Below are positions 9,998 to 55,527 of a stretch of 64,000 nucleotides of DNA, one piece after another (the first letter of the stretch is position 1; each line of letters opens with the position of its first letter). Made by a program: the position numbers and the translations under genes. The notes beneath the pieces were generated by a model. It saw only the letters and a program-made list of their open reading frames with translations, did no database searches and was not told where the DNA came from. Source of the DNA: Thauera phenylacetica B4P (GTDB taxonomy: Bacteria > Pseudomonadota > Gammaproteobacteria > Burkholderiales > Rhodocyclaceae); NCBI RefSeq assembly GCF_000310225.1, contig NZ_AMXF01000003.1, positions 1 to 64,000 of the forward strand, in the 5' to 3' direction.

Positions 9998-10022
9998 GGA
10001 CCCGGGTCGAGGTGCTGGCGTC

Positions 10023-11694: not shown

Positions 11695-11784
11695 CTCCGG
11701 CCGCTTGCGCGGGTTGATTCAATCTCGGGGACTCCCTCGGTCGCGTAGCCGACGAGGGGGGCCCGAACCACTTGAAGCCGATCG

Positions 11785-13329: not shown

Positions 13330-13342
13330 ACCGGAATCCATC

Positions 13343-39156: not shown

Positions 39157-39423
39157 ATGCCGCAGGAGATGGATTTGGACATCAGGAAGGAAGTGCTCGC
39201 GATCATCGACGAGGTTCTCAGCCTCGGGGGGCGGGCGAACGACTTCGAGCTCGATACCCCGTTGCTCGGTGCTCTGCCGGAACTCGATTCGATGGCGGTC
39301 GTCGGCCTGATCAACATGATCGAGGAGCGTTTCGGTTTCGTCATCGAAGACGACGAGATCGATGGTGCCGCCTTCGCCTCGGTCGGCACCGTGGTCGAGT
39401 TCGTGGAAGCCAAGCTGGGCTGA
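39157..39423 (+). CDS. Acyl carrier protein, exosortase-A-associated
   Basis: An 88-residue acidic carrier protein. The phosphopantetheine site is LPELDSMAVVGLINMIEERF with Ser45; the preceding helix is VLAIIDEVLSL and the C-terminal helix VGTVVEFVEAKLG. Such carriers hold an acyl or aminoacyl group as a thioester in the cytoplasm. It begins the coupled series carrier-hydrolase 2-hydrolase 1-glycosyltransferase; hydrolase 2 starts one base after its stop. The start is uncertain (ATG 39157 or ATG 39169). In exosortase-A loci this protein accompanies the AMP-forming ligase and PLP decarboxylase, here on the minus strand at 53941 and 47353. It does not look like the housekeeping AcpP, because its DSM site differs from DSL and its context is not fatty-acid synthesis. 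Confidence 0.88.
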   Translation: MPQEMDLDIRKEVLAIIDEVLSLGGRANDFELDTPLLGALPELDSMAVVGLINMIEERFGFVIEDDEIDGAAFASVGTVVEFVEAKLG

Positions 39424-39424
39424 C

Positions 39425-40252
39425 ATGGCGCTGCCTGCCCGGGAGGCCTTTTTTCTCGAAGCCCCCCTGGGCGGGCGTTTCTGTCTGTTGACAAGGGCGC
39501 AGGGGCCGGTCCGGGGCACCATCCTCCATGTGCCTGCCTTCGCCGAGGAGCAGAACAAGTCTCGGCGCATGGTCGCGCTGGCAGCGCAGGCGTTTGCGGC
39601 CCGCGGCTGGACCGTCCTGCAACTCGACCTCCTGGGCTGTGGTGACAGCGCTGGCGAGTTGGTCGATGCGAGCTGGTCGCAATGGGTCGAGGATGTCGGT
39701 CTGGGACATGCTTTCCTGAGTGCGCGCGGCAGCGGCCCGGTGGTGTTGTGGACACATCGTGCCGGCAGCCTGCTTGCTGCCGATTGGCTGAAGCTTGCCG
39801 GCGCGCGTCTCCCGTTGCTGCTGTGGCAGCCGGTGACCAATGGCCGCCAGCACCTGTCGCAGTTCCTGCGCCTCAAGGCTGCGAGCGAGATGCTCTCGGA
39901 CGCCGATGCGAAGACCGCGCTTGCGCGCGCACGCGTTGCCCTGCATGCGGGCGAGGTGGTCGAGGTTGCGGGTTACGAACTGTCGCCCGAACTGGCCAAC
40001 GGCATGGAGGCGTCCAGCTTCGAGCTCCCGGCATCCGGTGGGTACGCGGTAGCGATGCTGGAGGTCGATGGAAGCGGACGCACTGCGCCCCCGCCGGCAC
40101 TTGCCGCGCTGCGGGCGCGGCTCGAAGCGCAGGGCGCGACCGTGTCGCTCGAGAAGGTCACGGGGCCGGCGTTCTGGCAGACGCAGGAGATCGAGCTCGC
40201 GCCCGAGCTGATCGAGCGGTCCTGTCATGTGCTCGAGGTTCTGGGGCGATGA
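39425..40252 (+). CDS. Hydrolase 2, exosortase-A-associated (alpha/beta hydrolase, degenerate nucleophile)
   Basis: A 275-residue alpha/beta-hydrolase-fold protein matching TIGR03101. The oxyanion-side loop is HVPAFAEEQNKSRRMVALAA, with the strand TVLQLDLLGCGDSAGEL. At the nucleophile elbow it has LWTHRAGSL, so His111 sits where Ser or Cys is expected in GxSxG. The usual catalytic serine is therefore missing and the protein may be a binding or structural partner of hydrolase 1. It is invariably found with hydrolase 1 in type 1 exosortase loci. ATGA overlap joins it to hydrolase 1, and one base separates it from the carrier protein. Possible role in releasing or transferring the carrier-bound group. 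Confidence 0.87.
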   Translation: MALPAREAFFLEAPLGGRFCLLTRAQGPVRGTILHVPAFAEEQNKSRRMVALAAQAFAARGWTVLQLDLLGCGDSAGELVDASWSQWVEDVGLGHAFLSARGSGPVVLWTHRAGSLLAADWLKLAGARLPLLLWQPVTNGRQHLSQFLRLKAASEMLSDADAKTALARARVALHAGEVVEVAGYELSPELANGMEASSFELPASGGYAVAMLEVDGSGRTAPPPALAALRARLEAQGATVSLEKVTGPAFWQTQEIELAPELIERSCHVLEVLGR

Positions 40253-41130
40253 GCTTTGCCGAGCTTGCCTGCGTTTTCCCCTGCGGCGAGACCGAGTTGG
40301 TCGGTGTCCTGGCGCTACCACACGAACCGACCGGCTCGGTCGGGGTGCTGGTGATCGTTGGAGGTCCGCAATACCGCGTAGGCAGCCACCGGCAGTTCCT
40401 CCAGCTATCTCGCAGGCTCGCCGCGGCTGGCGTGCCTGTGATGCGTTTCGACTATCGAGGGATGGGCGACGCAGGCGGCGAGGTGGTCGATTTCGAGCAC
40501 ACCGGACCGGACATCGCGGCAGCGACCGAGGCCTTCATGCGCGCCGCGCCGTCGGTGCGTCATCTTGTCTTGTGGGGACTGTGCGATGGCGCGAGCGCCG
40601 CTGCCATGTACCTGCCTCAGGACAGCCGGATAGCTGGAGTCGCGCTGCTGAACCCTTGGGTGCGCACGCTTGCGTCGCAGGAGCGGGCCGAGGTTACGCA
40701 CTACTACGCGCGTCGGTTTCGAGACCCCGCCTTCTGGCGCAAGCTCGTTCGTGGAGGTGTGGCGGTGGGCCCGGCGATAGCCGATTTCGCCGCCAAGGCC
40801 TGGCGGATGATGAAGTCTCGTACGTCACCCCTGGAGCAAACCGCCCTCTCCGCGGCTGCTCCTGCTGATTTTCGTGAGCGGATGTCCGTTGCGCTTGCGG
40901 CATTCCAAGGGCGCTCCCTTGTCATGCTGAGCGGTCGTGACCTGGTTGCCGCCGAGTTTCGCGATCACCTCCGGCAGACCCCGCTGCTGCTCGCCTGGTC
41001 TGCGGATCCTCGTACAACCGTGCTCGACTTTCCGCAGGCCGACCATACTTTTTCCAGCCGTGCGCAAAAGCGTGCTGTCGAGGATGCGATGCTGTCCTGG
41101 CTGGCGGATCTCGAGGAGACCTTGCGTTGA
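40249..41130 (+). CDS. Hydrolase 1, exosortase-A-associated (alpha/beta hydrolase, Cys nucleophile)
   Basis: A 293-residue alpha/beta hydrolase matching TIGR03100. It has VLVIVGGPQYRVGSHRQFLQ, VMRFDYRGMGDAGGE and the nucleophile elbow LWGLCDGAS with Cys112 in place of Ser. Near the C-terminus are LVMLSGRDLVA and DFPQADHTFSSR, supplying the Asp and His of the triad. A Cys-Asp-His triad suits thioester or acyl-transfer chemistry, consistent with the carrier protein two genes upstream. It overlaps hydrolase 2 (ATGA), and its stop overlaps a TTG-started glycosyltransferase (TTGA). Substrate unknown. Confidence 0.88.
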   Translation: MSFAELACVFPCGETELVGVLALPHEPTGSVGVLVIVGGPQYRVGSHRQFLQLSRRLAAAGVPVMRFDYRGMGDAGGEVVDFEHTGPDIAAATEAFMRAAPSVRHLVLWGLCDGASAAAMYLPQDSRIAGVALLNPWVRTLASQERAEVTHYYARRFRDPAFWRKLVRGGVAVGPAIADFAAKAWRMMKSRTSPLEQTALSAAAPADFRERMSVALAAFQGRSLVMLSGRDLVAAEFRDHLRQTPLLLAWSADPRTTVLDFPQADHTFSSRAQKRAVEDAMLSWLADLEETLR

Positions 41131-43441: not shown

Positions 43442-43491
43442 CCTCGCCGCATCGCGGTCTGGTCGTTTGCGGTGGATTTGGAGAGTTGATT

Positions 43492-44139
43492 ATGCAAGGG
43501 CGTAGCGTTTTCTTTTCCCTACTGTGCGTCTGCCTTCTGTACGTGACGCCCGCTGCAGCGGAACTGTACTGTCCGGGTTCGCCGTTCAAGAACGGCCCTG
43601 AGGATCCGGGGGTCGGGCCGTATGATTACTACGATGTGCAGGCGCAGCGGCAGTATTTGTCTGTCGTGGAAACCCATCACTTCACGCCCTCGGTAGAGAG
43701 CTTGAGGAGGGGCTCGACCGGCTCGGTCGGACAGGACCTGAGCTATACGTTGAATTCTTTCCCGAATCACCCCCGCGCCTTGATTGCAATGATGAACGTT
43801 GCGCTGAGTCGAGATCAGGGACTGAGAGGGGGGATGACCCGGAGCCCGGAATGCTTCCTCGATCGAGCGATCAAGTTCCGCCCCAAGGATGCCAGGGCGC
43901 GTGAGATCTACGGAGTCTATTTATACAAGAAGGGAAGTTACGCCGAAGCGAGGAAGCAGTTCGATGTGGCGCTCTCGGAGGGCTACGATGAACCGATGTT
44001 CCACTACAACTTCGGCCTCCTTCTCGTCAAGCTCAAGGATTGGGACGCTGCATTGATTCATGCCCGCAAGGCGTACCAGGCTGGTGTCTCCTTTCCCGGA
44101 CTCCGGCGTCAATTGCAGGAGGCAGGGCGGTGGAGGTAG
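43492..44139 (+). CDS. Secreted TPR-repeat protein
   Basis: A 215-residue protein with a signal peptide (SVFFSLLCVCLLYVTPAAA, cleavage before ELYCPGS) and two to three tetratricopeptide repeats, for example ARAREIYGVYLYKKGSYAEA then FHYNFGLLLVKLKDWDAALI. Two Cys (ELYCPGS and PECFLDRA) could form a disulfide in the periplasm. Presumably a scaffold for polysaccharide or envelope assembly. GGAGAG is at good spacing before ATG 43492; a TTG two codons earlier is less likely. No PEP-CTERM tail is present. A gap of 50 bases separates it from the glycosyltransferase. Confidence 0.75.
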   Translation: MQGRSVFFSLLCVCLLYVTPAAAELYCPGSPFKNGPEDPGVGPYDYYDVQAQRQYLSVVETHHFTPSVESLRRGSTGSVGQDLSYTLNSFPNHPRALIAMMNVALSRDQGLRGGMTRSPECFLDRAIKFRPKDARAREIYGVYLYKKGSYAEARKQFDVALSEGYDEPMFHYNFGLLLVKLKDWDAALIHARKAYQAGVSFPGLRRQLQEAGRWR

Positions 44140-44182
44140 TCGATAGCCTTCACGGTTCATCACGCCGGGTCGAGGCTTGAAA

Positions 44183-45214
44183 ATGGCTCCAATCGGCGGC
44201 GTCGGGGATCCTGAATCAAGCAGGATGCGCTACCTCGACGGGTGGCGTGGCCTCGCCATCCTCTTGGTTCTGGAGGGGCACTTCCTGAGCATTTTGCCGC
44301 TGAACACCGGGCGCCTCGGCGTCGATGTCTTCTTCTGCCTTTCCGGGTTCCTGATGAGTGGCCTGCTTTTCATCAAGCAGCAGCCGTTAAGCATTTTCTA
44401 CAAGCGTCGAATAAGCCGGGTATTCCCGGTTTTTTTATTTTTTGTCGTTTCGATCTATAGCGTTGCCGAGATTTCTGGAGCCGACTTCTCATCAGCAGAG
44501 TTTTTTGCGACGCTAGCGTTCCTCCGCACTTACCTTCCGCTGGAAATCGGTATCTGGCAAGGCAATGTTCCGATTGGCCATCTCTGGTCGTTGAATGTAG
44601 AGGAGCATGCCTATTTGCTGATGAGCCTGGTGACGCTGTTGCCTTGGGCTCGGGGCAGGGAAGGGTGGGTGTTGCTCTCGAGCGGCACGCTCTGCATCCT
44701 GATCGGATTGGCTTATGTCCGGCTCGGCCCCTTGGCCCCGCACTCTGGCGACCTTGGCACGGAGGTCGCCGCCTCGCACTTGTTCATTGCGGCGGGATAC
44801 CGACTGGTACGGGAGCACTATCGCTGGACGGTCTCGTCTTGGTTGCCACTCCTTTCGACGTTCGCCGCAGCCTGCCTATATTCGGATATCGCGCCATGGT
44901 GGGCGCCCCGGCTGCTGTCCCCGTATCTGCTCGCCTTTGCCGTCAATCACCTCGTGGACGCCCACGTCGCGGTGCGAGCACTGCTATCTTCGCGATTGAT
45001 GACATCTTTTGGCATCTGGTCTTTTTCTATCTACGTCTGGCAACAGCCTTTTTTCGTGCTGCGAGCCGAGTTCATCGGCGGTTCAGCGGGGGCGTTCGTG
45101 GTGGCGATGGGCGTGGCGCTCGCGTCGTATTACTTCCTTGAAGACCCCTGCCGAAGATGGCTCAATGCTCGATGGACTCAAGGGCGCACGGCGGAGGGGG
45201 CGCGATCTGGATGA
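44183..45214 (+). CDS. Acyltransferase 3 family membrane protein
   Basis: A 343-residue membrane O-acyltransferase (OafA/YrhL-like). The N-terminus RYLDGWRGLAILLVLEGHF holds the conserved Arg and His, with VDVFFCLSGFLMSGLLF and HLWSLNVEEHAYLLM following; these correspond to the family's R-x10-H and GVDLFF motifs. It has about ten hydrophobic segments. It likely O-acetylates a sugar of the polymer. The ATG at 44183 has a GAGG site. GC drops within the gene, as in the next one. Confidence 0.84.
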   Translation: MAPIGGVGDPESSRMRYLDGWRGLAILLVLEGHFLSILPLNTGRLGVDVFFCLSGFLMSGLLFIKQQPLSIFYKRRISRVFPVFLFFVVSIYSVAEISGADFSSAEFFATLAFLRTYLPLEIGIWQGNVPIGHLWSLNVEEHAYLLMSLVTLLPWARGREGWVLLSSGTLCILIGLAYVRLGPLAPHSGDLGTEVAASHLFIAAGYRLVREHYRWTVSSWLPLLSTFAAACLYSDIAPWWAPRLLSPYLLAFAVNHLVDAHVAVRALLSSRLMTSFGIWSFSIYVWQQPFFVLRAEFIGGSAGAFVVAMGVALASYYFLEDPCRRWLNARWTQGRTAEGARSG

Positions 45215-45334
45215 GACTGCTCGATGTTATTTGTGATGCACGTGAATTTTTCTTCAAATTCTGCCTCGGCCGATTTTGATCCTGAATATTTTCGATTGTT
45301 TGAAAACTAACGCGGCAAAGAGCTCGAAGAATAA

Positions 45335-47335
45335 ATGGAATACAGGCGAGAGATTGACGGGCTGAGAGCCCTTGCTGTGCTTCCTGTAATATTTTTTCAT
45401 GCCGGTTATGAGTCTTTTAGCGGTGGGTTTGTTGGTGTCGATGTCTTCTTCGTGATCAGTGGCTATCTGATCACGAAGATCATTCTTTCCGATCTCGAGC
45501 ATGGTCGGTTCTCCATCGTCGGGTTTTACGAGAGGCGTGCGAGGCGGATTCTTCCCGCGTTGTTTTTCGTGATGCTTGTCTGCCTTCCGTTTGCCTGGCG
45601 CTGGTTGTTGCCGGGAGATATGAAGGACTTTTCGCAAAGCCTCGTTGCGGTAGTTGCTTTTTCATCGAATTTGCTATTCTGGAAAGAAAGCGGCTACTTT
45701 GATGTCGCTGCCGAGCTCAAGCCTCTTCTGCACACATGGAGTTTGGCTGTCGAAGAGCAATATTATCTCTTCTTTCCTGTTTTCCTGATGCTTGCATGGA
45801 GAATCGGGAAAGGTCCGATTTTATTGATCATGGGGCTTCTTACCCTTGGCAGCCTGGTTTTGGCAGAGTGGGGCGTGCGATCCGATCCCGCTCTGGCGTT
45901 TTATCTTCTACCCACTCGCGGTTGGGAGCTGTTGGTTGGGGCCTTTGTCGCTTTTTACCTCAGCTCGAAGGCTGGTGTCGCCCCGCGGCGAGATGTTGCG
46001 GAAGCTGGCGGCTTGCTCGGTTTTCTGTTGCTCGTTTACAGCGTTTTCACGTTTGACGAAGCCACCCCTTTTCCAGGTCTCAGTGCGCTTGTACCAACGG
46101 CAGGCACTGCGCTCGTCATTCTTTGCTCATCGCCCGCCACCGCCGTTGGACGTTGGTTGGGGTCGGAGGTCGCTGTAGGTATTGGGCTGATCAGCTATAG
46201 CGCCTATTTGTGGCATCAACCTCTGTTTGCTTTTTTGCGGCACAGGAGTCTCACCGAGCCGAGCGGATCACTTTTTTTTGCAATGGCCTTGACGTCGTTG
46301 TTTCTTGCCTATCTTACATGGCGATTCGTCGAGACGCCTTTTCGAAACAAGGCAAAAACGAGTCGAAGTCTGATATTTGGAGGCGCCTCGGCCGGGTTGG
46401 CTTTTTTTGGCCTTGTCGGCGTGATTGGCCACGTTACAGATGGCTATTTCGGTCGAAACCCGGACGATGCCGCGTTGTTGATACAGAAGACGGCCCGGGA
46501 GACAGGGAGGAGCAAGGAATGCTGGGAAAAATTGCGGGAAAGCGGATCCCTCGAGGGCGCTTGTGTGCTGGGAGACGATTCGAAGCCCCTTACTTTTGCC
46601 CTGTTTGGGGATAGCCACGCCGCGACACTCGCTAACCAGATGGATCTACACGCGAGAAGAAGCGGGGTTTCGGGATACGATTTCACCTACATCGCCTGCT
46701 CTCCGATCCGACACGGCTCGGATGCAAAGAATGACGCGAATTCAAGGGTTTGTTCGGACTTGCGGCGTGATTTTTTCGATCGGCTCGAGAGAGGGGGATT
46801 GCCGAGAACAATAGTCGTTTTTGCTCGGTGGACATTAAGGGTCGAGCGATCGAGGTTCGATAACGGCGAAGGTGGAGTTGAGCTTGGAGAGGACGATCCC
46901 TGGATTGTTCCGGGCTATCTCGCAACCGGATACGTGGAGACACTGGGTGAAAGCATCAAGAGTTCGGTAATGGAAATGATCGCGGCAGGGCATCGGGTCG
47001 TGCTTGTCTATCCGGCGCCCGAGATGGGTTGGAGCGTTCCGCTGCAGTTGGTCCGTGCGGTGCAATACCGTGGCGTCTTGAACGATCATGACGCATCGGT
47101 GTCGCTGGATGTTTTCCGAGAACGGAACAAGAGAACCTACCGAATTCTCGACGAGATCGGTGAGCATGAAGGTTTGGTGAGGGTGAGACCGGCCGAATTT
47201 TTTTGCGATACGTACGTCAGAGAGCGTTGTGTAGGAAACGTTTCTGGCTTGCCGCTATATTACGACGACGACCATCTTTCGAATTTTGGTGCGGGATTTG
47301 TCGTCGGCGAGATCATGAAGCATGTCTTGCGATGA
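45335..47335 (+). CDS. SGNH-domain acyltransferase (OafA-like), low GC
   Basis: A 666-residue two-domain protein. Residues 1 to about 370 form the acyltransferase-3 membrane domain (REIDGLRALAVLPVIFFHAG, GVDVFFVISGYLITKIIL, HTWSLAVEEQYYLFFPVFLM). Residues about 400-666 form a periplasmic SGNH hydrolase-like domain with block I FALFGDSHAATLAN and block V YYDDDHLSN giving the Ser and Asp/His. In OafA-type enzymes the membrane domain passes an acetyl group across and the SGNH domain transfers it to the polymer. Base composition is clearly lower in GC (near or below 50 percent by eye) than both flanks, and a 120-base AT-rich leader precedes it; this indicates recent horizontal acquisition. It converges with the PLP decarboxylase gene, 17 bases away. 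Confidence 0.9.
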   Translation: MEYRREIDGLRALAVLPVIFFHAGYESFSGGFVGVDVFFVISGYLITKIILSDLEHGRFSIVGFYERRARRILPALFFVMLVCLPFAWRWLLPGDMKDFSQSLVAVVAFSSNLLFWKESGYFDVAAELKPLLHTWSLAVEEQYYLFFPVFLMLAWRIGKGPILLIMGLLTLGSLVLAEWGVRSDPALAFYLLPTRGWELLVGAFVAFYLSSKAGVAPRRDVAEAGGLLGFLLLVYSVFTFDEATPFPGLSALVPTAGTALVILCSSPATAVGRWLGSEVAVGIGLISYSAYLWHQPLFAFLRHRSLTEPSGSLFFAMALTSLFLAYLTWRFVETPFRNKAKTSRSLIFGGASAGLAFFGLVGVIGHVTDGYFGRNPDDAALLIQKTARETGRSKECWEKLRESGSLEGACVLGDDSKPLTFALFGDSHAATLANQMDLHARRSGVSGYDFTYIACSPIRHGSDAKNDANSRVCSDLRRDFFDRLERGGLPRTIVVFARWTLRVERSRFDNGEGGVELGEDDPWIVPGYLATGYVETLGESIKSSVMEMIAAGHRVVLVYPAPEMGWSVPLQLVRAVQYRGVLNDHDASVSLDVFRERNKRTYRILDEIGEHEGLVRVRPAEFFCDTYVRERCVGNVSGLPLYYDDDHLSNFGAGFVVGEIMKHVLR

Positions 47336-47352
47336 TGAACGCTCGGTGGCGC

Positions 47353-48594
47353 TCACACCAGCACCTCCACCACCCCCGGATGCCCCAGAAAGCGCTGCGG
47401 ACTCGCCGTCGCGCCGTAGGCGCCGGACTGGTAGATCGCCACCAGGTCGCCGGGCTCGGCGGCGGGCAGGCTCATGCGGTCGGCGAGCAGGTCGAGCGGG
47501 GTGCATAGCGGGCCGACGACCGAGACGGCCTCCGTCGTGGCGGCATCCATGCGGTTGGCGATCGCGGCGGGGTAGTTCTTGCGGATGACCTGGCCGAAGT
47601 TGCCGGAAGCGGACAGGTGGTGGTGCAGGCCGCCGTCGGTGACCAGGTAGGTGAGGCCGCGCGAGACCTTCTTGTCGAGCACGCGGGCGATGTAGAGGCC
47701 GGCTTCGCCGACGAAGTAGCGCCCGAGCTCGATGACGATCTCGGCCTGCGGCAGCGCGGTCTTCGCTTGTTCGACGATGTCGGCGAGGTTGGCGCCGATG
47801 GGCGCGAGGTCGAGCGGCTGTTCGCCGGGGAAGTAGGGGATGCCGAAGCCGCCGCCGAGGTTGAGGAAGCGGACCGGCGAGGGCGCGTGTTCCGCCAGGC
47901 GGCAGGCGAGCGCGAAGCTCTTCTGCTGGGCCTCGACGATGGATTCGGGCTTGAGGTTCTGCGAGCCGGCGAAGAGGTGGAAGCCCTCGAAGGCCAGCCC
48001 GGCGCGGCCGATCTCCGCGAGCAGCTCGGGCACCTGCTCGGCATCGACGCCGAACTGCTTGGGCCCGCCGCCCATCTTCATGCCCGAGGACTTGAGCTCA
48101 AAGTCGGGATTGACGCGTACCGCCACCCGCGCCGGCAGCCCGAGCGCCTGCTGTGCCGCGGCCAGGATCGGCACCTCGCGGAAGGATTCGACGTTGACCA
48201 GGATGCCGGCGGCCACCGCCTGGTGCAGCTCGGCCTCGGTCTTGCCGGGGCCGGCGAAGCTGATCTCCTGCGGATCGGCGCCGGCGTTGAGCGCGACCAG
48301 CAGCTCGCCCGCCGAGGCCACGTCGATGCCGTCGACCAGGCGCGCCATGTGGCACACCAGCGCCGGCATGGGGTTGGCCTTCATCGCGTAGTGCAGCTTG
48401 ACCGCGGCGGGCAGGGCCGCGCGCAGCTGTGCTACGCGCGCATCGAGCAGGCTACGGTCGTAGGCGTAGAAGGGGGTGTGGCCGACCCGCGCCGCGATGC
48501 GGCTGATCGGCTGGGCGTTGACCAGCAGCTCGCCGCCTGCGCTGCGGAACTGCGACATCGGGGTGTGGGTGGGGGCTTGGCGGGGTTCGGTCAT
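47353..48594 (-). CDS. PLP-dependent decarboxylase, exosortase-A-associated (fold type III)
   Basis: A 413-residue Orn/DAP/Arg decarboxylase-type enzyme matching TIGR03099. The PLP lysine is Lys72 in LHYAMKANPMPAL. The phosphate-binding Gly loop is NLGGGFGIPYFPGEQP, and the C-terminal GPLCTPLDLLADR holds the conserved Cys that in this fold acts in catalysis across the dimer. Most relatives decarboxylate ornithine, lysine or diaminopimelate; BtrK of butirosin synthesis decarboxylates glutamate while bound to a carrier protein. With the AMP-forming ligase and carrier protein of this locus, a carrier-linked amino acid is a plausible substrate. The start is not certain; ATG 48558 would shorten it by 12 residues. 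Confidence 0.88.
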   Translation of the reverse strand: MTEPRQAPTHTPMSQFRSAGGELLVNAQPISRIAARVGHTPFYAYDRSLLDARVAQLRAALPAAVKLHYAMKANPMPALVCHMARLVDGIDVASAGELLVALNAGADPQEISFAGPGKTEAELHQAVAAGILVNVESFREVPILAAAQQALGLPARVAVRVNPDFELKSSGMKMGGGPKQFGVDAEQVPELLAEIGRAGLAFEGFHLFAGSQNLKPESIVEAQQKSFALACRLAEHAPSPVRFLNLGGGFGIPYFPGEQPLDLAPIGANLADIVEQAKTALPQAEIVIELGRYFVGEAGLYIARVLDKKVSRGLTYLVTDGGLHHHLSASGNFGQVIRKNYPAAIANRMDAATTEAVSVVGPLCTPLDLLADRMSLPAAEPGDLVAIYQSGAYGATASPQRFLGHPGVVEVLV

Positions 48595-48732
48595 GGTGGA
48601 TTCGGGTGTTCGTGATCGAAGCGGAAGGGACGAGACGAGTTCAGGCCACTTGCCGGCGTGTGCGGCATCCCGCCGGCCGGCGCTGGGCGCAGGTCACCGT
48701 CTTGGGCGAGCCTGGGGCGGCACAAGGATGGA

Positions 48733-50541
48733 TCAGTCGATGCTGATTCCATCACAGTGCGCGCGCATCCAGAACTCCATCATCATCAGGATCCACAACA
48801 TCTCGCCGTAGTAGCCGGGGTGCGCGGGGAGGTGGACCGAGAGCAGCTCGTCGATGAAGCCCGGGCGCACGATGCCGCGCTGGCGGAAGCTGCCGAGCGC
48901 GTCGGCGGCGAGCGCCTTGAGGCCGGCGTGCTGGCAGGCCCACACGCCGAAGGGCAGGCCGAAGCCGTGCTTTTTCTTGGCGATGATCTCGTCGGGCAGG
49001 AAGCCGCGCAGCGCCTCCTTGAAGAACCAGCGCAGGGTCAGGCGCTTGAGCTTCCACTCCGGTGGCAGCGTGGTGGAGAAGTCGGTGAGCTCGTCCGACA
49101 GCAGCGGGAAGGCCACCTCGACACCGGCGAGGCCGGTGGTGCCGATGACCTTGGGCAGGTCGTTGTCGGCGAGGGTGTATTTCCAGTCGTAGTTGAGCAT
49201 CAGGTTGATGTGCGAGCGCGCGTTGGTCGCGTGCCACACCTCGCGCTGCTCGACGTTTGGGCGGCCGGTGTCGACGCGGGCGAGGAAGCCGGGCTCGAAC
49301 ACCGAGTCCATGCCAAGGCGCACCAGCATGTTGTACATGTGGATGCGGTCGGGCATGGGCACGCGCGCCTGCTCGACGTAGCTCTGTCCCTTGCGCGTGA
49401 CCGGGAGGCGGTCCATGCCGGGCAGTGCCAGCGCGGGCTCGAGCAGGCCGCGGCGCAGCGCGCCGGGCACGCTGTCGTACCAGCCGAACACGCGCTGCTT
49501 GGCGTAGCGGCTGTTGCCGCCGAAGAGCTCGTCGCCGCCGTCGCCGGCGAGAATGCGCTCGACGCCGTCCTCGCGTGCGCGCGTGGCGCAGATCCAGCCC
49601 GGCAGCGCCGAGGAGTTGCCGAAGGGCTGGTCGTAATGGGTGGCGACCTTGGGGATGCCGTCGACCAGGTCGGCGGGGGTGACGTAGTACTCGCGATGAT
49701 CGGCGCCGAAGCGCTTGGCGGCGAGGCGGGCGTACTCCATCTCGTCATAGCCGCTGGCGTCGAAGCCGATGGAGAAGGCGCGCGCCGGCTGGCCGAGCAC
49801 CTTGCACAGCATGCCGGTGACGGTCGAGCTGTCGGTGCCGCCGGAGAGGAAGCAGCCCACGCTGGCGCCCTCGGCCTCGCGGCGCACGCCGTCCTCGACG
49901 ATCTGCAGGAAGCGCGCCTTGGACGGCTCGAGATCGGGCGAGCCGTGCTCGTCGAACTGCGGGTTCCACCAGCGCCGGCATTCGGCCTGGCCGTCGCGCC
50001 ACTTCAGCAGGTGGCCGTGGGGCAGGCGCACGATGCCCTCGAAGATGGTCGTCGGCGCCGGGATCATGTGGAAGAAGAGGTACTCGAACACCGCCTGCGG
50101 GGCGACCCTGCGCTCGACGCCGGGGACGGTGTCGGCGCGGTCGGAGAAGTGCAGCCGGCCGTCGCGCGCGGCATAGCAGATCGGCCAGGTGCCGAAGCGG
50201 TCGGTGGCGAGCAGCGCCTCGCGCCCGTCGTCGGCCACCATCACCACGCAGAAGCGCCCGGCAGCCTGGTGCACCGCGTCGTCGCCGAAACGCGCGAAGG
50301 CCTGTGCCCAGGCAGCTGCCGCGCCCTGGGCGGTGTTGATCTGCTGCAGCGCCGCGTCGTGAAAGCGCGGGCGCCCAAGGACGATGCTGACGCGTCCGCC
50401 CTCCTGGAAGGAGCTCACCTCGGGCCGATACGCCAGCGCTCCGGCAGGAAACTGCAGACGGGCCATCTGTCCGGGCAGGGAGGCGGCGGCCTCCGACGAG
50501 CCGAGAACACCACAAAAACGTTCGCGCACGAGTCTCTCCAT
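48733..50541 (-). CDS. Second asparagine-synthase-like amidotransferase with degenerate glutaminase domain
   Basis: A 602-residue AsnB-like protein of the XrtA locus. The synthetase domain looks intact: PPi loop CFLSGGTDSSTVTGMLC and ILAGDGGDELFGGNSRYA. The glutaminase domain does not: Cys is residue 10 (MERLVRERFCGVLG), not residue 2, and the NGEIYN substrate motif is replaced by LGRPRFHD. So it probably cannot use glutamine unless an N-terminal peptide is removed, and may use ammonia or another amine, or act like beta-lactam synthetases. The start at 50541 is backed by GGAAGG at good spacing. It differs from the intact amidotransferase at 23988. The gap to the decarboxylase is 138 bases. 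The acceptor is unknown. Confidence 0.83.
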   Translation of the reverse strand: MERLVRERFCGVLGSSEAAASLPGQMARLQFPAGALAYRPEVSSFQEGGRVSIVLGRPRFHDAALQQINTAQGAAAAWAQAFARFGDDAVHQAAGRFCVVMVADDGREALLATDRFGTWPICYAARDGRLHFSDRADTVPGVERRVAPQAVFEYLFFHMIPAPTTIFEGIVRLPHGHLLKWRDGQAECRRWWNPQFDEHGSPDLEPSKARFLQIVEDGVRREAEGASVGCFLSGGTDSSTVTGMLCKVLGQPARAFSIGFDASGYDEMEYARLAAKRFGADHREYYVTPADLVDGIPKVATHYDQPFGNSSALPGWICATRAREDGVERILAGDGGDELFGGNSRYAKQRVFGWYDSVPGALRRGLLEPALALPGMDRLPVTRKGQSYVEQARVPMPDRIHMYNMLVRLGMDSVFEPGFLARVDTGRPNVEQREVWHATNARSHINLMLNYDWKYTLADNDLPKVIGTTGLAGVEVAFPLLSDELTDFSTTLPPEWKLKRLTLRWFFKEALRGFLPDEIIAKKKHGFGLPFGVWACQHAGLKALAADALGSFRQRGIVRPGFIDELLSVHLPAHPGYYGEMLWILMMMEFWMRAHCDGISID

Positions 50542-50683
50542 CGGCTGCCTTCCGGCGCCGCATTGCATTGAACCGCCCGGATGATGCCCCATGCTGCGTG
50601 GAATGTCAGTGAACTGTGGCGCAGTGCCGAGTCTCCGGGCGTGATCATGTCCCGCCGCTGGCGACTCCCGCAGGAGTGCGTCC

Positions 50684-50751
50684 GTGGGAGCGGGCTCGCC
50701 CGCGAAAACTCCGTGCCCGATCGCCGCATTCGCGGGCAAGCTCGCTCCCAC
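50684..50751. repeat. Inverted pair of REP units
   Basis: GTGGGAGCGGGCTCGCCCGC followed by GAA at 50684-50706 and its inverted partner TTCGCGGGCAAGCTCGCTCC followed by CAC at 50729-50751 flank a 22-base spacer. The unit nearly equals the common Pseudomonas REP sequence, and head-to-head pairing is the form recognised by RAYT transposases. It lies between the amidotransferase and the beta-helix gene and can form a long hairpin, which may also end transcription. The rest of the 236-base gap holds nothing recognisable. Confidence 0.8.
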
Positions 50752-50777
50752 GATGTCGTCTGCGGCGAGGTTGCCGT

Positions 50778-51962
50778 TCAGTAGCCTAGCTGCACGGCGC
50801 CGGGCAGCCAGCTGTCGGGCGGGGTGATCGGTCGGGTGCCGATCGGCAGCGCGAACTCGCCCTCGGGCTGCAAAGAAACACCGCGCGCGCTGCCCGCGGG
50901 CGAGGTGAATCGGCGCAGCAGGCTGGCGCCGAGCGGGCGGAAGTCGAGGGTCTCGGGGTCCTCCAGCCCTCCCGGCGGGAGGGGCAGGTTGCCGCGGAAT
51001 TCCCCGGTGTTGGCCAGCGTCAGGCTGCCCAGGCCGACGCTGAGGTTGTTGATGCCGACGATCCCGGTGCCCTCGGGAAGGCGGTCGGGCCAGGTGCGCA
51101 GGAACAGGGTGCCGGTGTGGCGATCGCTGAGCAGGGTGTTGTGGGCGAGGTAGAGCGCGCTCTCGGGCCAGGCGTTGCCCTCGGCACCATAGGCGACCAT
51201 CACCGGGTTCTGCGTGGCGGCGGATTGGCCGACGATGTTGCCCACGACGAAGGCGAGCCCGCCGTTGGGCAGCTCGAGCTCGTACGAGGCTTCGCCTTGC
51301 GGCCCGTCATAGAGCAGGTTGTAGCGGATGTCGTTGTAGCTTGCGCGCGACTTGAGCAGGTGGCCGCGGTAGCCCTGATGGAAGCGGCTGCCGCTGATCT
51401 CGAAGCGGGCGATGCGGCCGACGTAGAGCAGGTGGGGCAGCGACTCCTCTTGCTTCGGAGCTTGCGCGAAGAGGCTGTCGCGCACGAAGAGCTCGGACTC
51501 GGCGAAATTTGCGGTGAGGATGCCGGCCTGGTTGTCGATGAAGACGCTGTTGCGAACCTCGAGCCGGCCACGCTCGAAGCGGATCCCCGCGCCGTTGTAA
51601 TCTGCGGCCCGGGCGCCGCGGAACTCGATGTTGTCGATGAGGAAGTTGCCGTCGGCGATCACCCAGATCGCCTTGCCCTGCTCGATCCTGCCGTCGGCAA
51701 TCAGCACCGGGCGGTCGCCGACACCGCGGATCGTGAGTTGCTTCTGGCGCCAGGTGGCGACGTCGCCGCGGTATTCGCCGGGGAGGATCTCGACGATGTC
51801 GCCGTCGCGTGCCGCTTTCGCTGCGTCGGCGATGCGGGCGTACTCCTGTCCCGAGCCGACCCGCAGAACATCCGCACCAGCCGGTTGCGCCAGGAGTGCG
51901 GTGAGCATCAGGCCGAGTCGCGCTGCATGTTTGCGCAAACGGTCCCGTCGGTCGATCAACAT
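50778..51962 (-). CDS. Exported right-handed beta-helix protein
   Basis: A 394-residue secreted protein with signal peptide (AARLGLMLTALLAQPAGA, cleavage before DVLRVGSG). The mature chain consists of short repeats forming a parallel beta-helix, with AKAARDGDIVEILPGEYRGD marking the first turns and NFLIDNIEFRGARAADYNGA, LEVRNSVFIDNQAGILTANF, ARFEISGSRFHQGYRGHLLK further on. This fold is used by polysaccharide lyases and mannuronan epimerases (AlgG/AlgE-like). No exact catalytic motif is recognised. It may modify or bind the EPS outside the inner membrane. The start at 51962 is preceded by GAGGCAAG; an open frame to 52115 runs through the neighbouring gene. It lies 14 bases after the SGNH acyltransferase on the same strand. 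Confidence 0.82.
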   Translation of the reverse strand: MLIDRRDRLRKHAARLGLMLTALLAQPAGADVLRVGSGQEYARIADAAKAARDGDIVEILPGEYRGDVATWRQKQLTIRGVGDRPVLIADGRIEQGKAIWVIADGNFLIDNIEFRGARAADYNGAGIRFERGRLEVRNSVFIDNQAGILTANFAESELFVRDSLFAQAPKQEESLPHLLYVGRIARFEISGSRFHQGYRGHLLKSRASYNDIRYNLLYDGPQGEASYELELPNGGLAFVVGNIVGQSAATQNPVMVAYGAEGNAWPESALYLAHNTLLSDRHTGTLFLRTWPDRLPEGTGIVGINNLSVGLGSLTLANTGEFRGNLPLPPGGLEDPETLDFRPLGASLLRRFTSPAGSARGVSLQPEGEFALPIGTRPITPPDSWLPGAVQLGY

Positions 51963-51976
51963 TTTGCTTGCCTCAT

Positions 51977-53944
51977 TCAGCGCGCGAGACGTTCGACTTG
52001 ATCGAACAGCGCCAGCCGTGTCCCCAGCAGTGCGGAGCCTGGATCGGATAGATGGGCGCTGTCCCGATACAGAGGGGTTCCTTCCAGCGTCGTCCGGCAC
52101 TTCGTGCCGTCGCAAAGCAAAGCGTCGAATCGGATCACGCTCACATTCCCTTCGTTTTCGATGCGATTCAGGAAGGCGAGGACCCGTGATCGCCTCTCCC
52201 GGTAATCCTTCTCGTCAATGATGCAGTCTTGTGGAGCGCCGAGAATCAGCTTCTCCTCCTGCAGACGTTCCAGGCAAGCGCCGACGTTGAAACCGGACGA
52301 TGGCGGCGGGGCAATGATGATGACCTTGAGCCCGAGCGTCCGAATCTGCGCGATCGTTCCTGCAAGATGCTTCAGCGCGAGGTCCGGGTCCGGGTGCGTT
52401 TGTACGTAAAGGGAGTCGGACTTGACCAACACGTCGAAAAGCTCCCCGTCCAGATAGCCCCGGAATGGGCTGGACAGAACCACCGTCCGGATCGTCGAGG
52501 CGGTCTTCAGGTACTCGAGGACCGCATCGTTGAAGTCGATACAGGTACGTGCCCATGCAGCATCGTAGCCTTTGCGCGAGTTCCGCTCCACAGGGGCGAT
52601 GCCCGCAAGCGGGCCGCATGCGCTTCTCGTCACCTGCAGCAGACTGGCTTGCGCTCCCGAGCGCAGGGCGGCGATGACATGCATCGCGAACGAGTCTCCC
52701 CATACCAGGACCTCGGGATCTGTCGAGGTCATGCATGCCGGGCGCACCTGGAAGTGGCTTAGCTCGCAACCGGGGGCGAGCCCGAACTGCGTCTCACGGA
52801 AGGTGCCGGAAGGTACCTCGGAGGCGAAGGCCCGCACAAGCCCCAACGGAAGGATCGCCAGCGCGAGCGAAACGATCGCGACCTGGCGCAAGTGCGACCA
52901 TGAGAAGGCGATCCTGGCCCTTCGCATGGGCTCCTCGACGAGTCTGTGCAGCAGCCACGCGATTGGAAAGGAGGCTGCCATTGCTGCCAGTCCCAGTTCC
53001 AGGGGAAGTTCTCCCGCCGTTTCGCCGACCCATGCGTTGTTCATGAAGGCGAAGATTGGCCAATGAACGAGATAGAGCGAGTAGGAGAGGTCTCCGATAC
53101 GAGCGAGACTCCGTAACGGCTTCGACGTGTTGCGCGCCAATCGACCATCGAGGATGACGACAACGGTAGCGATGCAGATCAGTAGAGCGGGGAGTCCAGG
53201 ATGTCTGCCGCCGACCGCGACGAAGGGCAGCGAGATCAGGAGCACGAGGCTTGGCCAGAACAGGCGCCCGGCGACAGTCCGCACCTGCGGTTGTGCGATC
53301 AGGAAGGCGCCGAGGGAGCCGATGGCGAGTTCCCACGCCCGGGTCGGCAGCAGGTAGAAGGTCGCGATGGGCTTCCACTGGATCAGCGCCAAGCACAGGC
53401 CGAGGCTGGCGATTGCGATCAGGATGGTTGCCCGCAGCCAAAGGTGTCGCGGGATCAGGACGAGCGTTGCCGGCAGCAGGAAGTAATACTGTTCCTCCAG
53501 TGAGAGCGACCAGACGTGCAGGAGGGGCTTGAGTTCCGCCGCGCCCTCGAAGTAACCGCTCTGCTGCCAAAGCACGATGTTCGCGCTGAAACTCAGGGCG
53601 CCAGCGACTTGCGCCGTGAGGTCGCGCAACTCGCTGGTGCCCAAAATGAATGGCGCGCAGAGAATCGTGATCAGGAAGGTTACGTACGCCGCCGGCAGCA
53701 GTCTTTTCGCGCGCCGGAAATAGAAGTCGCGAAAGGTGAATGTGCCCTGCTCGATGCCGGCCTTGACCAGTCCCGTGATCAGGAAGCCCGAGATCACGAA
53801 GAAGATATCGACGCCGAGGAAGCCCGACGCTGGCGCCCCTAGCCGTGCGTGATAGACGACCACGAGGAGAACCGCCAAGCCCCGCAGGGCCTGGATATCC
53901 GCACGGTTCTTGTCTTGACCGGCAACGCAGGCGGATGCGCTCAC
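51977..53944 (-). CDS. SGNH-domain acyltransferase (OafA-like), GTG start
   Basis: A 655-residue two-domain acyltransferase. The membrane domain begins RADIQALRGLAVLLVVVYHA with the conserved Arg/His, then GVDIFFVISGFLITGLVK and HVWSLSLEEQYYFLLPATLV. The C-terminal SGNH-like domain has LVWGDSFAMHV in block I, with Phe replacing the His of GDSH, and DSAHLSDPGSALLG in block V, so the main Ser and His are present. It probably O-acetylates the polymer. The GTG at 53944 overlaps the ligase stop (GTGA). GC is close to that of the core, unlike the SGNH acyltransferase at 45335, so it may be an older member of the locus. Confidence 0.9.
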   Translation of the reverse strand: MSASACVAGQDKNRADIQALRGLAVLLVVVYHARLGAPASGFLGVDIFFVISGFLITGLVKAGIEQGTFTFRDFYFRRAKRLLPAAYVTFLITILCAPFILGTSELRDLTAQVAGALSFSANIVLWQQSGYFEGAAELKPLLHVWSLSLEEQYYFLLPATLVLIPRHLWLRATILIAIASLGLCLALIQWKPIATFYLLPTRAWELAIGSLGAFLIAQPQVRTVAGRLFWPSLVLLISLPFVAVGGRHPGLPALLICIATVVVILDGRLARNTSKPLRSLARIGDLSYSLYLVHWPIFAFMNNAWVGETAGELPLELGLAAMAASFPIAWLLHRLVEEPMRRARIAFSWSHLRQVAIVSLALAILPLGLVRAFASEVPSGTFRETQFGLAPGCELSHFQVRPACMTSTDPEVLVWGDSFAMHVIAALRSGAQASLLQVTRSACGPLAGIAPVERNSRKGYDAAWARTCIDFNDAVLEYLKTASTIRTVVLSSPFRGYLDGELFDVLVKSDSLYVQTHPDPDLALKHLAGTIAQIRTLGLKVIIIAPPPSSGFNVGACLERLQEEKLILGAPQDCIIDEKDYRERRSRVLAFLNRIENEGNVSVIRFDALLCDGTKCRTTLEGTPLYRDSAHLSDPGSALLGTRLALFDQVERLAR

Positions 53945-55527
53945 TCCACAATCTCGCTCGCCAGCGTCTTGCGGTCGATCTTGCCGTTGGGGTTGCGCGG
54001 CAGCGGGCCTTCGCGCACCTCGATGCGGCCGGGCACCATGTAGGCCGGCATGCGCGCGCGGCACTCGGCGAGCAGCGCGGCGGTGTCGAGCGTGCCGCCG
54101 GCGGGCGCGGTGGCGATGACGACGATGCTCTGGCCGAGGGTGTCGTGGGCGACGCCGAAGGCGGCGCACTCGCCGACCAGGCGGGTGGCGTAGAGGATCT
54201 CCTCCACCTCGGTGGGGCTGACGCGGTAGCCCGAGGTCTTGATCATCTCGTCGCGGCGGCCGATGAAGTAGAGGTAGCCCTCCTCGTCGCGACGCACGGT
54301 GTCGCCCGAGAACACCGCGATCTCGGGCAGCACCAGCCCGCTCTGGCGGCCCGGCGCCCTGGCGGGCAGGGGCTTGAAGCGCTCGGCGGTCTTCTCCGGG
54401 TCGTTCCAGTAGCCCATGGCCACGAGCGCGCCGCGCTGCACCAGCTCGCCCGGTTCGTTGGGCGCGCATTCGCTGCCGTCCTCGCGCAGCACCATGATCT
54501 CGGCGTTGGGGATGGCCTTGCCGATGGAGTCGGGGCGCACGTCGGCCTGCTCGGGCGGCAGGAAGGTGGCGCGGAAGGCCTCGGTGAGGCCGTACATCAG
54601 GAAGGGCCGGGTCTTGGGCAGCATGCCGCGCAGCGTGGTGAGCGTCTCCAGCGGCATGCGCCCGCCGGTGTTGGCGATGTAGCGCAGGTGCTCGGTGACG
54701 GTTTCGGGCCACTGCAGCTGCGAGAGCTGGATCCACAGCGGCGGCACCGCGGTGAGGCCGGTGACCTTCTCCTTCTCCACGGCCTTCAGCACGTCGCGCG
54801 GCATCAGGTAGTTGAGCAGCACCACGCGCGCGCCGGAGTGGAAGGCGGTGCTGAGCTGCGAGAAGCCGGCGTCGAAGGACAGCGGCAGGGCGGCGAGCAG
54901 GGTGTCGCCGGGGTGGTTGCCGAGGTACTGGGCGACGCTCTTGCCGCCGGCCACCATGTTGCGATGCGACAGTACCACCCCCTTCGGCCGCCCGGTGCTG
55001 CCGGACGTATACAGGATGGCGGCCATGTCGGTGTCGATGATGCGGTGGCCGGCTGCGGGCGGCGCGGCGCACAGCTCGTCCCAGCGCAGCACGCTCGCGC
55101 CGGGCAGTTCGGGCAGGGTCTCGACCTTGCCGGTGAGCACGACGTGGCGCAGGTCGTGGCACTGCGCAAGGGTGTCGCGCAGGGCGGCGAAGCGCTCGGG
55201 CGAGGTCACCAGCACGCGTACGTTGCAGTCCTGCAGGATGTAGCCGACCTGCTCGGGCTTGAGGATCGGGTTCACCGGCACGAACACGCCGCCCGCGGCG
55301 CTGGCGCCGAAGAAGGCGGTGACCGTCTCGGGGCGCTTGTCGAGGTAGATGCCGACGCGTTCGCCGCGCTCGAGCCCGAGGGCGAGCAGTCCGGCGGCGA
55401 ACGCGGACAGCGCGGCGTCGAGCTCGGCATAGCTTTGCGTGGCGCCGCCGAAGCTCAGCGCGGGGGCTTGGGGCGCGCGCGCGGCGGAGGCGGCGATCAG
55501 GTGGTGCAGCAGCGTGGTGTGGTTCAT
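53941..55527 (-). CDS. AMP-forming acyl-CoA/carrier ligase, exosortase-A-associated
   Basis: A 528-residue ANL-superfamily enzyme matching TIGR03098. P-loop motif A3 is LYTSGSTGRPKGVVLSH, A5 MYGLTEAFRATF, and the catalytic Lys is in NPNGKIDRKTLASE near the C-terminus. Motif A8 is RRDEMIKTSGYRVSPTEVEE. It activates a carboxylate as the adenylate and loads it onto CoA or phosphopantetheine; the carrier protein at 39157 is a natural acceptor. With the fold-III decarboxylase it would allow activation followed by decarboxylation. First gene of the minus-strand block ligase-acyltransferase-beta-helix-amidotransferase-decarboxylase. A divergent promoter region of about 180 bases separates it from copA. 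Confidence 0.88.
   Translation of the reverse strand: MNHTTLLHHLIAASAARAPQAPALSFGGATQSYAELDAALSAFAAGLLALGLERGERVGIYLDKRPETVTAFFGASAAGGVFVPVNPILKPEQVGYILQDCNVRVLVTSPERFAALRDTLAQCHDLRHVVLTGKVETLPELPGASVLRWDELCAAPPAAGHRIIDTDMAAILYTSGSTGRPKGVVLSHRNMVAGGKSVAQYLGNHPGDTLLAALPLSFDAGFSQLSTAFHSGARVVLLNYLMPRDVLKAVEKEKVTGLTAVPPLWIQLSQLQWPETVTEHLRYIANTGGRMPLETLTTLRGMLPKTRPFLMYGLTEAFRATFLPPEQADVRPDSIGKAIPNAEIMVLREDGSECAPNEPGELVQRGALVAMGYWNDPEKTAERFKPLPARAPGRQSGLVLPEIAVFSGDTVRRDEEGYLYFIGRRDEMIKTSGYRVSPTEVEEILYATRLVGECAAFGVAHDTLGQSIVVIATAPAGGTLDTAALLAECRARMPAYMVPGRIEVREGPLPRNPNGKIDRKTLASEIVE

Follow-up and report, generated by a model that had tools for sequence, protein, structure and literature searches.

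A probable beta-alanyl-carrier-protein module in an exosortase-A-type exopolysaccharide locus of Thauera phenylacetica B4P

Introduction

What reaction is catalysed by TIGR03098–TIGR03101, four protein families whose names read 'exosortase A system-associated' and give no function? The question is raised by a stretch of 64,000 nucleotides from Thauera phenylacetica B4P (assembly GCF_000310225.1, contig NZ_AMXF01000003.1, positions 1–64,000, forward strand), referred to here as the window, in which all four families score above their curated cut-offs in an exosortase-A locus. The exopolysaccharide locus hosting the set (11785–33076, + strand) encodes chain-length, kinase, ATPase, deacetylase and FemAB proteins, GTs, XrtA (21216–22724), AsnB1 and an O-ligase; TIGR03007, 03018, 03015, 03006, 03019, 03087, 03109, 03088, 03108, 04063 and 03097 are over cut-off in the profile search. 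An original prediction, made from the window alone, had proposed that a carrier protein, ligase and decarboxylase perform butirosin-type carrier-bound amino-acid chemistry, with transfer of the product to the polysaccharide or to a PEP-CTERM protein anchor. It had placed its named proteins correctly: the TIGR03098–TIGR03101 members are confirmed by their scores, and the carrier and an asparagine-synthetase-like protein lie beside them.

In the open-access papers searched, none joined exosortase with beta-alanyl, pyridoxal-dependent decarboxylase, BtrK, VinN, AfcQ, TIGR03098 or TIGR03099, and by title and abstract none of the matches listed describes the set. The main text of the first PEP-CTERM system paper (PMC1569441) lacks the terms decarboxylase, ligase, acyl carrier, hydrolase and asparagine synth, and the set goes unmentioned in the available portions of PMC2907700 and PMC9850573. 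Here, we propose that the set functions as a beta-alanyl-carrier-protein module for the exopolysaccharide of the exosortase-A-type locus, a reading that we consider fairly likely. Aspartate would probably be turned into beta-alanine on the carrier, ready for attachment to the polysaccharide, by chemistry known from antibiotic pathways.

Results and discussion

The set is split into two divergent groups, at 39157–41130 on the + strand and 47353–55527 on the − strand. The former begins with a free-standing carrier protein (39157–39423) whose phosphopantetheine serine lies in the motif LDSM (codon 39289–39291); it matches ACP-type profiles below the cut-off of each single family, and its D-S motif is present in 24 of 24 sequences. 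A gap of 1 bp separates its stop from the start of hydrolase 2 (39425–40252, +; TIGR03101, 272.8 bits against a cut-off of 202.75), the stop of which overlaps the ATG of hydrolase 1 (40249–41130, +; TIGR03100, 295.6 bits against 168.45) in ATGA. AF2 models give both an alpha/beta-hydrolase fold (mean pLDDT 93.5 and 89.2 for hydrolases 2 and 1, respectively). Hydrolase 2 is probably not a true hydrolase, its nucleophile being replaced by arginine (Arg112, 18/18). Hydrolase 1 had been called Cys-type in the original prediction, and its cysteine, in G-L-C-D-G, is indeed found in all 19 sequences, as are the histidine and aspartate (translation from 40246, one residue ahead of the ATG); in a 22-row alignment the histidine is conserved at 'at least 90%'. 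It thus has both the Cys-His-Asp residues and the fold expected of Cys alpha/beta-hydrolase acyltransferases. Fold searches with the two models returned generic esterase and lipase folds only; since the nearest folds of hydrolase 1 are ordinary esterases and lipases, a hydrolase fits as well as a transferase, and we regard the protein as a candidate acyl-thioester transferase or release enzyme.

Judged by its profile matches and pocket residues, the ligase (53941–55527, −; TIGR03098, 820.7 bits against 592.35; Asp219, Thr287, Arg319, Lys516) is a VinN-type ANL adenylation enzyme and not of the butirosin type. A PDB search with its core placed 3wvn and 3wv4, which we take to be VinN structures, on top, and the full-length protein matched a multi-domain linear gramicidin synthase first (232 bits), followed by 3wvn (206 bits). 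Generic acyl-CoA ligase models also match in the profile search, and the amino-acid adenylation model TIGR01733 reaches 268 bits, under its cut-off of 317.4. In the part of the source available, Asp230, Ser299 and Arg331 of VinN recognise the alpha-amino and alpha-carboxyl groups of the substrate (PMC7756342); the Asp/Ser/Arg spacing in 3wvn and 3wv4 (69, 101) equals that of these residues. The window ligase carries the VinN-type Asp, Ser/Thr and Arg, and all 37 aligned ligases have Asp219, Arg319 and either Ser (30) or Thr (7, the window ligase among those with Thr) at position 287. A count over 76 more ligases (those above 400 bits, 76 of 80 loci kept) gave Asp in 75, with one gap, and Ser/Thr and Arg in 76 each. 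The three residues occur together in none of 22 controls, comprising 15 other ANL proteins of the same genome (28 PF00501 matches, yielding 16 rows aligned over at least 250 residues, including the window ligase) and seven other adenylation proteins; the comparison holding these seven also included the ligase of locus L130, which shows Ala at the Ser/Thr position in that alignment; only ligase rows above 60 bits were kept. The pocket predicts aspartate rather than glutamate as the substrate, and VinN-type enzymes with this arginine are described, in the sections available, as using aspartate or 3-methylaspartate (PMC7756342, PMC11284099, PMC12186527).

The ligase lies ∼5.3 kb from the decarboxylase, with three genes between them. 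Two of these, between the ligase and the amidotransferase on the same strand, were absent from the original prediction: a fusion of an AT3 acyltransferase with an SGNH domain (51977–53944, −; PF01757 and PF19040), whose GTG start overlaps the ligase stop, and a NosD-like right-handed beta-helix protein (50778–51962, −; weak matches, with the ATG at 51962 used as start) with 33% identity to a protein near locus L040, whose cluster recurs in 10 of 42 loci. The third is AsnB2 (48733–50751, −; Asn_synthase 238.5 bits), an asparagine-synthetase-like amide ligase whose true start is probably downstream of 50751. It retains a complete Asn_synthase domain, gives weak, partial GATase matches and lacks the N-terminal catalytic cysteine of glutamine-hydrolysing AsnB. 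The cysteine is missing in 22 of 24 aligned AsnB rows, the window AsnB1 apart (in seven by an end gap and in one by a partial gap), and present in two; rows above 400 bits in 80 loci and above 300 bits in 20 loci were kept. The damaged glutaminase domain of the original prediction is real as to the weak GATase match and the absent cysteine; mere damage, or a simply decayed gene, was rejected because relatives in other loci share the loss, which makes AsnB2 a conserved Cys-less form. AsnB2 also matches lasso-peptide cyclase models weakly, but this is no sign of a special function, as the normal AsnB1 scores better there (231.9 bits).

The fold-III PLP decarboxylase (47353–48594, −) belongs to TIGR03099 (635.4 bits against 478.45) and is related to BtrK. 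Its best PDB match is BtrK (7ru7, 282 bits), and diaminopimelate, ornithine and lysine decarboxylases are more distant (at most 163 bits, the score of the best diaminopimelate decarboxylase). Identity as a diaminopimelate decarboxylase (LysA) was rejected: RPALY and CESGD, presumably LysA substrate motifs, both occur in the LysA of the same genome and are missing here, where HHHLSASGN and CTPLD stand instead, and TIGR01048 scores 250.3 bits, under its cut-off of 297.9. For comparison, decarboxylases above 500 bits among the class loci (L072 excepted) and of at least 300 residues were kept; in the tree BtrK grouped with the TIGR03099 family at a low support of 0.54, and the available part of PMC7857480 places it in one clade with diaminopimelate decarboxylases. 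By analogy with AfcP and BtrK, the window enzyme is predicted to act on isoaspartyl-ACP and not on a free amino acid. Decarboxylases of ∼280 bits in the f207 genomes form a separate subfamily.

Members of the set are linked more than by chance. The ligase is found in 36 of 42 TIGR03099-homologue neighbourhoods, always on the same strand and within 200 bp in 32, and the decarboxylase is present in all 29 of the 369 genomes with hydrolase 1 over cut-off (Fisher p 8e-33). The full set is not universal, given that 23 of the 42 class loci, some of which are short contigs, have the ACP and 18 have hydrolase 1; FemAB lies within ∼10 kb of the set in one of the 42. Among the 369 genomes, 43 have the decarboxylase, 73 have exosortase A and 28 have both (Fisher p 3e-12). 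A sample of 20 neighbourhoods from 109 genomes covered all 16 with 310–456 bits and four of the 30 above cut-off. Modules also occur in glycan loci of Sinorhizobium and Aureimonas, with no annotated exosortase in the stretch viewed, and of actinobacteria; related modules lie in loci that are Dlt-like or lipopeptide-like and in further glycan loci. In L130 a methylaspartate (glutamate) mutase gene sits between ligase and decarboxylase, in agreement with the need of vicenistatin logic as given in the accessible part of PMC11284099.

Proposed pathway and alternatives

For loading and decarboxylation, the prediction draws on residues, on gene context and on a relative with assay data. The ligase would adenylate the beta-carboxyl of L-aspartate, with Asp219 holding the alpha-amino group and Thr287 and Arg319 the alpha-carboxyl, and load it onto the carrier phosphopantetheine; the decarboxylase would then strip the alpha-carboxyl from isoaspartyl-ACP to give beta-alanyl-ACP. 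Short beta-alanine chains could arise if the rounds were repeated, by analogy with AfcQ. For the transfer step, we infer that hydrolase 1, aided by the nucleophile-less hydrolase 2, may accept the group as a Cys thioester and hand it on to a cytoplasmic sugar or lipid-linked glycan precursor. The resulting polymer would bear primary amines, one of which Cys-less AsnB2 may next couple to a carboxylate.

Butirosin chemistry in the strict sense, with glutamate loaded and then decarboxylated to gamma-aminobutyryl-ACP, is quite improbable. The closest solved decarboxylase is BtrK, and the original prediction was right about a ligase, a carrier and a decarboxylase of the carrier-bound type. However, BtrJ, the butirosin loading enzyme, is of the ATP-grasp type and loads glutamate, whereas the window ligase is an ANL enzyme with aspartate-binding residues like those of VinN; VinN-type enzymes with this arginine are reported to use aspartate or 3-methylaspartate, and L130 carries a methylaspartate-making mutase. 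The strict scheme was rejected on ligase type, that is, on the TIGR03098 score and the core match to 3wvn. We give very little credence to a carrier and ligase that handle fatty acids, for instance to feed an exosortase-linked, FeeM-like N-acyl amino acid synthase, with the decarboxylase serving separately. Such synthases reportedly go with exosortase systems, the genome encodes an exosortase-associated acyltransferase (TIGR03694, 243.7 bits) and generic acyl-CoA ligase models match the ligase, but the synthase is on a different contig (C83), the VinN amino-acid residues are invariant in the 37 ligases, TIGR01733 matches, albeit under its cut-off, and ligase and decarboxylase lie within 200 bp of each other in most class loci.

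The destination of the product admits further readings. Hydrolases 1 and 2 might be editing thioesterases that clear stalled carriers, leaving transfer to FemAB/GNAT, the AT3-SGNH protein or a GT-linked enzyme; this is possible, and we regard it as doubtful. Esterases are their nearest folds, many decarboxylase loci have neither hydrolase nearby and the AT3-SGNH gene is coupled to the ligase in the window, yet the invariant cysteine in place of serine and the loss of the nucleophile in hydrolase 2 would be unusual in plain thioesterases, and FemAB is near the set in a single class locus. It is very unlikely that the product supplies the acceptor amine for the coupling of PEP-CTERM proteins by exosortase A. 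The association with exosortase A is strong and 13 PEP-CTERM matches with E of at most 0.1 lie in the genome, but the decarboxylase is absent from 45 of the 73 exosortase-A genomes, an exosortase-A-like match at E 1e-20 is absent from 12 of the 43 decarboxylase genomes, and the Sinorhizobium, Aureimonas and actinobacterial modules lie in glycan loci. On these counts, the transfer to a PEP-CTERM anchor put forward originally was rejected as a general role. That, where both systems coexist, an (oligo-)beta-alanyl side-chain amine of the exopolysaccharide is the exosortase A acceptor for PEP-CTERM proteins, and the module hence the source of the long-sought anchor of this sorting system, strikes us as a long shot.

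Should the beta-alanyl module be correct, both a substrate and a testable reaction could be assigned to TIGR03098–TIGR03101, and one would expect beta-alanine, as a decoration with a free amine, in surface polysaccharides of Zoogloea, Thauera, Accumulibacter, Nitrosomonas and relatives, the named records that bear the set. A module familiar from antibiotic pathways would then be widespread among loci for cell-surface glycans, working with transfer enzymes that are interchangeable.

Comparison with known systems

The nearest assayed parallel is AfcQ/AfcK/AfcP of Burkholderia, from the antifungal lipopeptide AFC-BC11, which according to the available part of PMC12186527 builds beta-alanyl thioesters from L-Asp in vitro: AfcQ accepts L-Asp and not beta-Ala, and AfcP decarboxylates AfcK-bound Asp. 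Like the window, Afc combines a VinN-type adenylation enzyme with the arginine, a free-standing carrier and a PLP decarboxylase, the last converting carrier-bound Asp to beta-alanyl thioesters; unlike it, Afc is described as leading to a lipopeptide by way of KAS III-like and fatty acyl ligase enzymes, where the window has alpha/beta hydrolases of the Cys type within a polysaccharide locus. An afc/bol-like locus of B. cenocepacia shows 54% (decarboxylase) and 50% (ligase) identity to the window proteins, AfcQ and AfcP themselves being compared by description. VinN/VinL/VinO (vicenistatin) and BolO/BolC/BolN (bolagladins) are likewise described, in the sections available, as performing beta-carboxyl activation, carrier loading and carrier-bound decarboxylation (proposed for Bol), with the Asp/Ser/Arg residues of the window ligase, which has Thr at the Ser position; their products are a polyketide or lipopeptide, vicenistatin deriving from 3-methylaspartate (PMC11284099, PMC7756342). 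BtrK and BtrI of butirosin provide the closest solved decarboxylase and, in the accessible part of PMC7857480, a carrier-bound substrate, and differ in that this substrate is glutamate. Dlt D-alanylation (DltA/C/B/D) is similar in that a carrier-borne amino acid decorates a surface polymer. To our knowledge, Dlt has no decarboxylase, and no MBOAT gene is present among the genes scanned near the window set; in L072 and L138, relatives of the window module lie beside MBOAT and SGNH/DltD-like genes.

Organization of the locus

The window (66.6% G+C) contains a complete exosortase-A-type exopolysaccharide locus at ∼11.8–33 kb, comprising genes for a chain-length determinant, a tyrosine autokinase, an ATPase, a deacetylase, a FemAB protein, three glycosyltransferases, exosortase A, the amidotransferase AsnB1 and an O-ligase, all scoring above curated cut-offs. 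The genes of the set lie downstream. Those for the carrier protein, hydrolase 2 and hydrolase 1 are tightly packed together on the forward strand (39157–41130), and the reverse strand (55527 down to 47353) carries in order the ligase, an AT3-SGNH acyltransferase, a NosD-like β-helix protein, the asparagine-synthetase-like protein AsnB2 and the decarboxylase, with the GTG of the AT3-SGNH gene overlapping the ligase stop. The proteins named in the original prediction, including the Cys in hydrolase 1 and the missing glutaminase centre of the amidotransferase, are borne out.

The polysaccharide region has four AT3 acyltransferase genes (25938–26972, 44177–45214, 45335–47335 and 51977–53944), two with an SGNH fusion, of which the last is the gene beside the ligase. 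A REP-type imperfect palindrome (GTGGGAGCGAGC...GCTCCCAC; 50684–50751, reverse strand) between the β-helix gene and AsnB2 overlaps the listed AsnB2 ORF start. Elsewhere in this genome, contig C83 encodes an exosortase-associated acyltransferase (TIGR03694, 243.7 bits; 2452–3144) alongside two PEP-CTERM matches.

Decarboxylase and ligase

A search of the PDB with the decarboxylase gave 282 bits for the BtrK entries 7ru7 and 2j66 versus 163 for the best diaminopimelate decarboxylase, and the lysA model scored 250.3 bits, below its cut-off of 297.9. Where LysA from the same genome has RPALY and CESGD, the decarboxylase has HHHLSASGN and CTPLD, and HHH and CTP-D are common to it and BtrK. A FastTree phylogeny with one true LysA as the outgroup places BtrK with the family of the decarboxylase and not with LysA, but the support is only 0.54; in a published analysis, BtrK falls into a wider clade with diaminopimelate decarboxylases (PMC7857480). 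A 50% identical homolog on a plasmid of Azoarcus sp. KH32C (locus L159, 7872–9185) is annotated as 'alanine racemase' and neighbours folE, a HAD hydrolase and methanofuran/tetrahydromethanopterin C1 genes.

The best PDB matches of the ligase core are 3wvn (E 2e-38) and 3wv4, both of which we take to be VinN; with the full-length ligase, the top match is a two-module linear gramicidin synthase (232 bits), followed by 3wvn (206 bits). The pocket letters of 3wvn are spaced by 69 and 101 residues in the alignment, agreeing with the numbering of the VinN Asp, Ser and Arg, and Asp219, Thr287 and Arg319 of the window ligase align with them. The substrate of VinN is 3-methylaspartate, supplied in vicenistatin synthesis by a glutamate mutase (PMC11284099).

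At these positions, the window ligase and those of 36 other loci have Asp, Ser/Thr (30 Ser, seven Thr) and Arg in 37/37, and the 76 ligases of the third collection have Asp in 75 (one gap) and both Ser/Thr and Arg in all 76. Of 16 ligases linked to a decarboxylase in the second draw, all have the Asp and the Arg and 15 have Ser/Thr, the exception being that of locus L130. As a control, the combination of all three residues is absent from 15 other ANL proteins of the same genome and from seven further adenylation proteins (one with a gap at Asp) in neighbourhoods L137, L139, L140 and L141; several control proteins carry the Asp alone.

In L130 the ligase has Ala at the Ser/Thr position, and a methylaspartate (glutamate) mutase gene sits between the ligase and decarboxylase genes, as would be expected of a ligase family with aspartate-type substrates. 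Despite the pocket Ala, the mutase hints, as an independent pointer, at such a substrate. The L130 ligase, mutase, decarboxylase and carrier genes are clustered (9116–14490), in what looks like a maker of 3-aminoisobutyryl-ACP.

AsnB2 and the hydrolases

AsnB2 has the synthetase P-loop (SGGTDSS) and lacks the N-terminal Cys, as do four proteins near the set in loci of the class. An alignment of 24 AsnB rows, including AsnB2 and excluding AsnB1, shows no Cys at this position in 22 (seven with an end gap, one with a partial gap) and a Cys in two. This would be consistent with an amide synthetase whose amine substrate is not ammonia; that this amine is β-alanyl is a guess. A 393-residue protein of Jiangella anatolica (L169, 14659–15840) has an asparagine-synthetase domain but gives no match to the glutaminase domain; its locus holds the module along with glycosyltransferases and a gene for an EF-Tu/CysN-like GTPase.

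The AlphaFold models of hydrolases 1 and 2 are confident (mean pLDDT of 89.2 and 93.5, respectively), and fold searches gave esterase/lipase-like folds for both. Cys, His and Asp are present in 19/19 hydrolase 1 sequences, and Arg occupies the nucleophile position in 18/18 of hydrolase 2. The Cys of hydrolase 1 may take the carrier-bound group as a thioester and then pass it on. Inspection by eye revealed no signal peptide at the start of either hydrolase, suggesting that the acceptor is probably cytoplasmic.

Distribution and association with exosortase

Within the class, TIGR03099 matches reach E 1e-90 or better in 43 of 369 genomes and exceed the cut-off in 37 of these; a second draw of 398 genomes of the phylum, with 20 neighbourhoods inspected that were picked mainly for divergence, gave 30 above the cut-off. 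Comparison of 42 class neighbourhoods besides that of the window, each of up to 20 kb, located the ligase in 36 (on the decarboxylase strand in all 36, within 200 bp in 32), the carrier in 23, hydrolase 1 in 18 and hydrolase 2 in 17, these counts being lower bounds since some contigs stop near the decarboxylase gene. Hydrolase 1 exceeds its cut-off genome-wide in 29/369, all belonging to the 43 decarboxylase genomes. Among the 80 loci listed in the third collection, 76 have the ligase, all on the same strand and 69 within 200 bp.

A reading in which the module product is the amine to which exosortase A couples PEP-CTERM proteins is unlikely. Exosortase A scores above its cut-off in 73 of the 369 genomes, the decarboxylase occurs in 43 and both in 28, a strong association (Fisher p 3e-12). 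However, 45 of the 73 exosortase-A genomes lack the decarboxylase; conversely, a search at E 1e-20 gave no exosortase-A-like match in 12 of the 43 genomes with the decarboxylase, and in three more the only match is below the cut-off. This search could miss exosortases of other types, as well as genes absent because a genome is incomplete.

The module also occurs in other glycan loci. In Sinorhizobium meliloti and Aureimonas, the ligase, decarboxylase and carrier lie amid glycosyltransferase and deacetylase genes, in Aureimonas with O-antigen genes as well, and the annotated stretches, whose gene tables are possibly incomplete, show no exosortase. The module adjoins glycosyltransferase genes in Jiangella, and a glycosyltransferase and a flippase gene in Actinoplanes. 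Two loci with more distant relatives, L072 (9076–15565) and L138 (4337–10827), resemble Dlt operons, combining the carrier, the PLP decarboxylase and a VinN-type ligase with an MBOAT protein (157.7 bits to DltB in L072, below the cut-off of 375) and a membrane-anchored SGNH/DltD-like protein. The SGNH assignment rests on visually identified G-x-S and D-x-x-H motifs and on a weak similarity between the two proteins (E 9e-5); these proteins have no Pfam match. L138 also has a sulfotransferase gene. Both operons possibly direct β-alanylation of a surface polymer. In L131 (7771–13363), the module lies beside a B12/radical-SAM gene and a gene of the aminoglycoside N3-acetyltransferase family (Antibiotic_NAT), perhaps another terminal transferase.

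Comparison with known systems

The conversion of carrier-bound aspartate to β-alanine is known chemistry. Within the open-access literature searched, exosortase was not joined with BtrK, VinN, AfcQ, TIGR03098, TIGR03099 or β-alanyl, nor 'exosortase A' with 'pyridoxal-dependent decarboxylase'; within the limits of these searches, the use of such chemistry in polysaccharide loci, whether exosortase-type or other, is undescribed. PMC12186527 calls AfcQ VinN-type, with Arg311 as the counterpart of VinN Arg331, and reports that it activates L-Asp, not β-alanine, and loads the carrier AfcK, repeatedly with longer incubation; AfcP decarboxylates the AfcK-bound Asp, giving β-alanyl chains on AfcK. The same logic is proposed for bolagladin, where β-alanine did not rescue a bolN deletion (PMC7756342).

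In a Burkholderia cenocepacia record, relatives of the decarboxylase (53.7% identity) and of the ligase (50%, with pocket motifs that are almost the same) are accompanied by a carrier gene and by two genes each of KAS III-like and acyl-CoA-dehydrogenase-like type. By resemblance we label this locus afc/bol-like, without equating it with afc. The proposed thioester hand-on by the Cys of hydrolase 1 would correspond to the role of the KAS III-like AfcL in the afc pathway.
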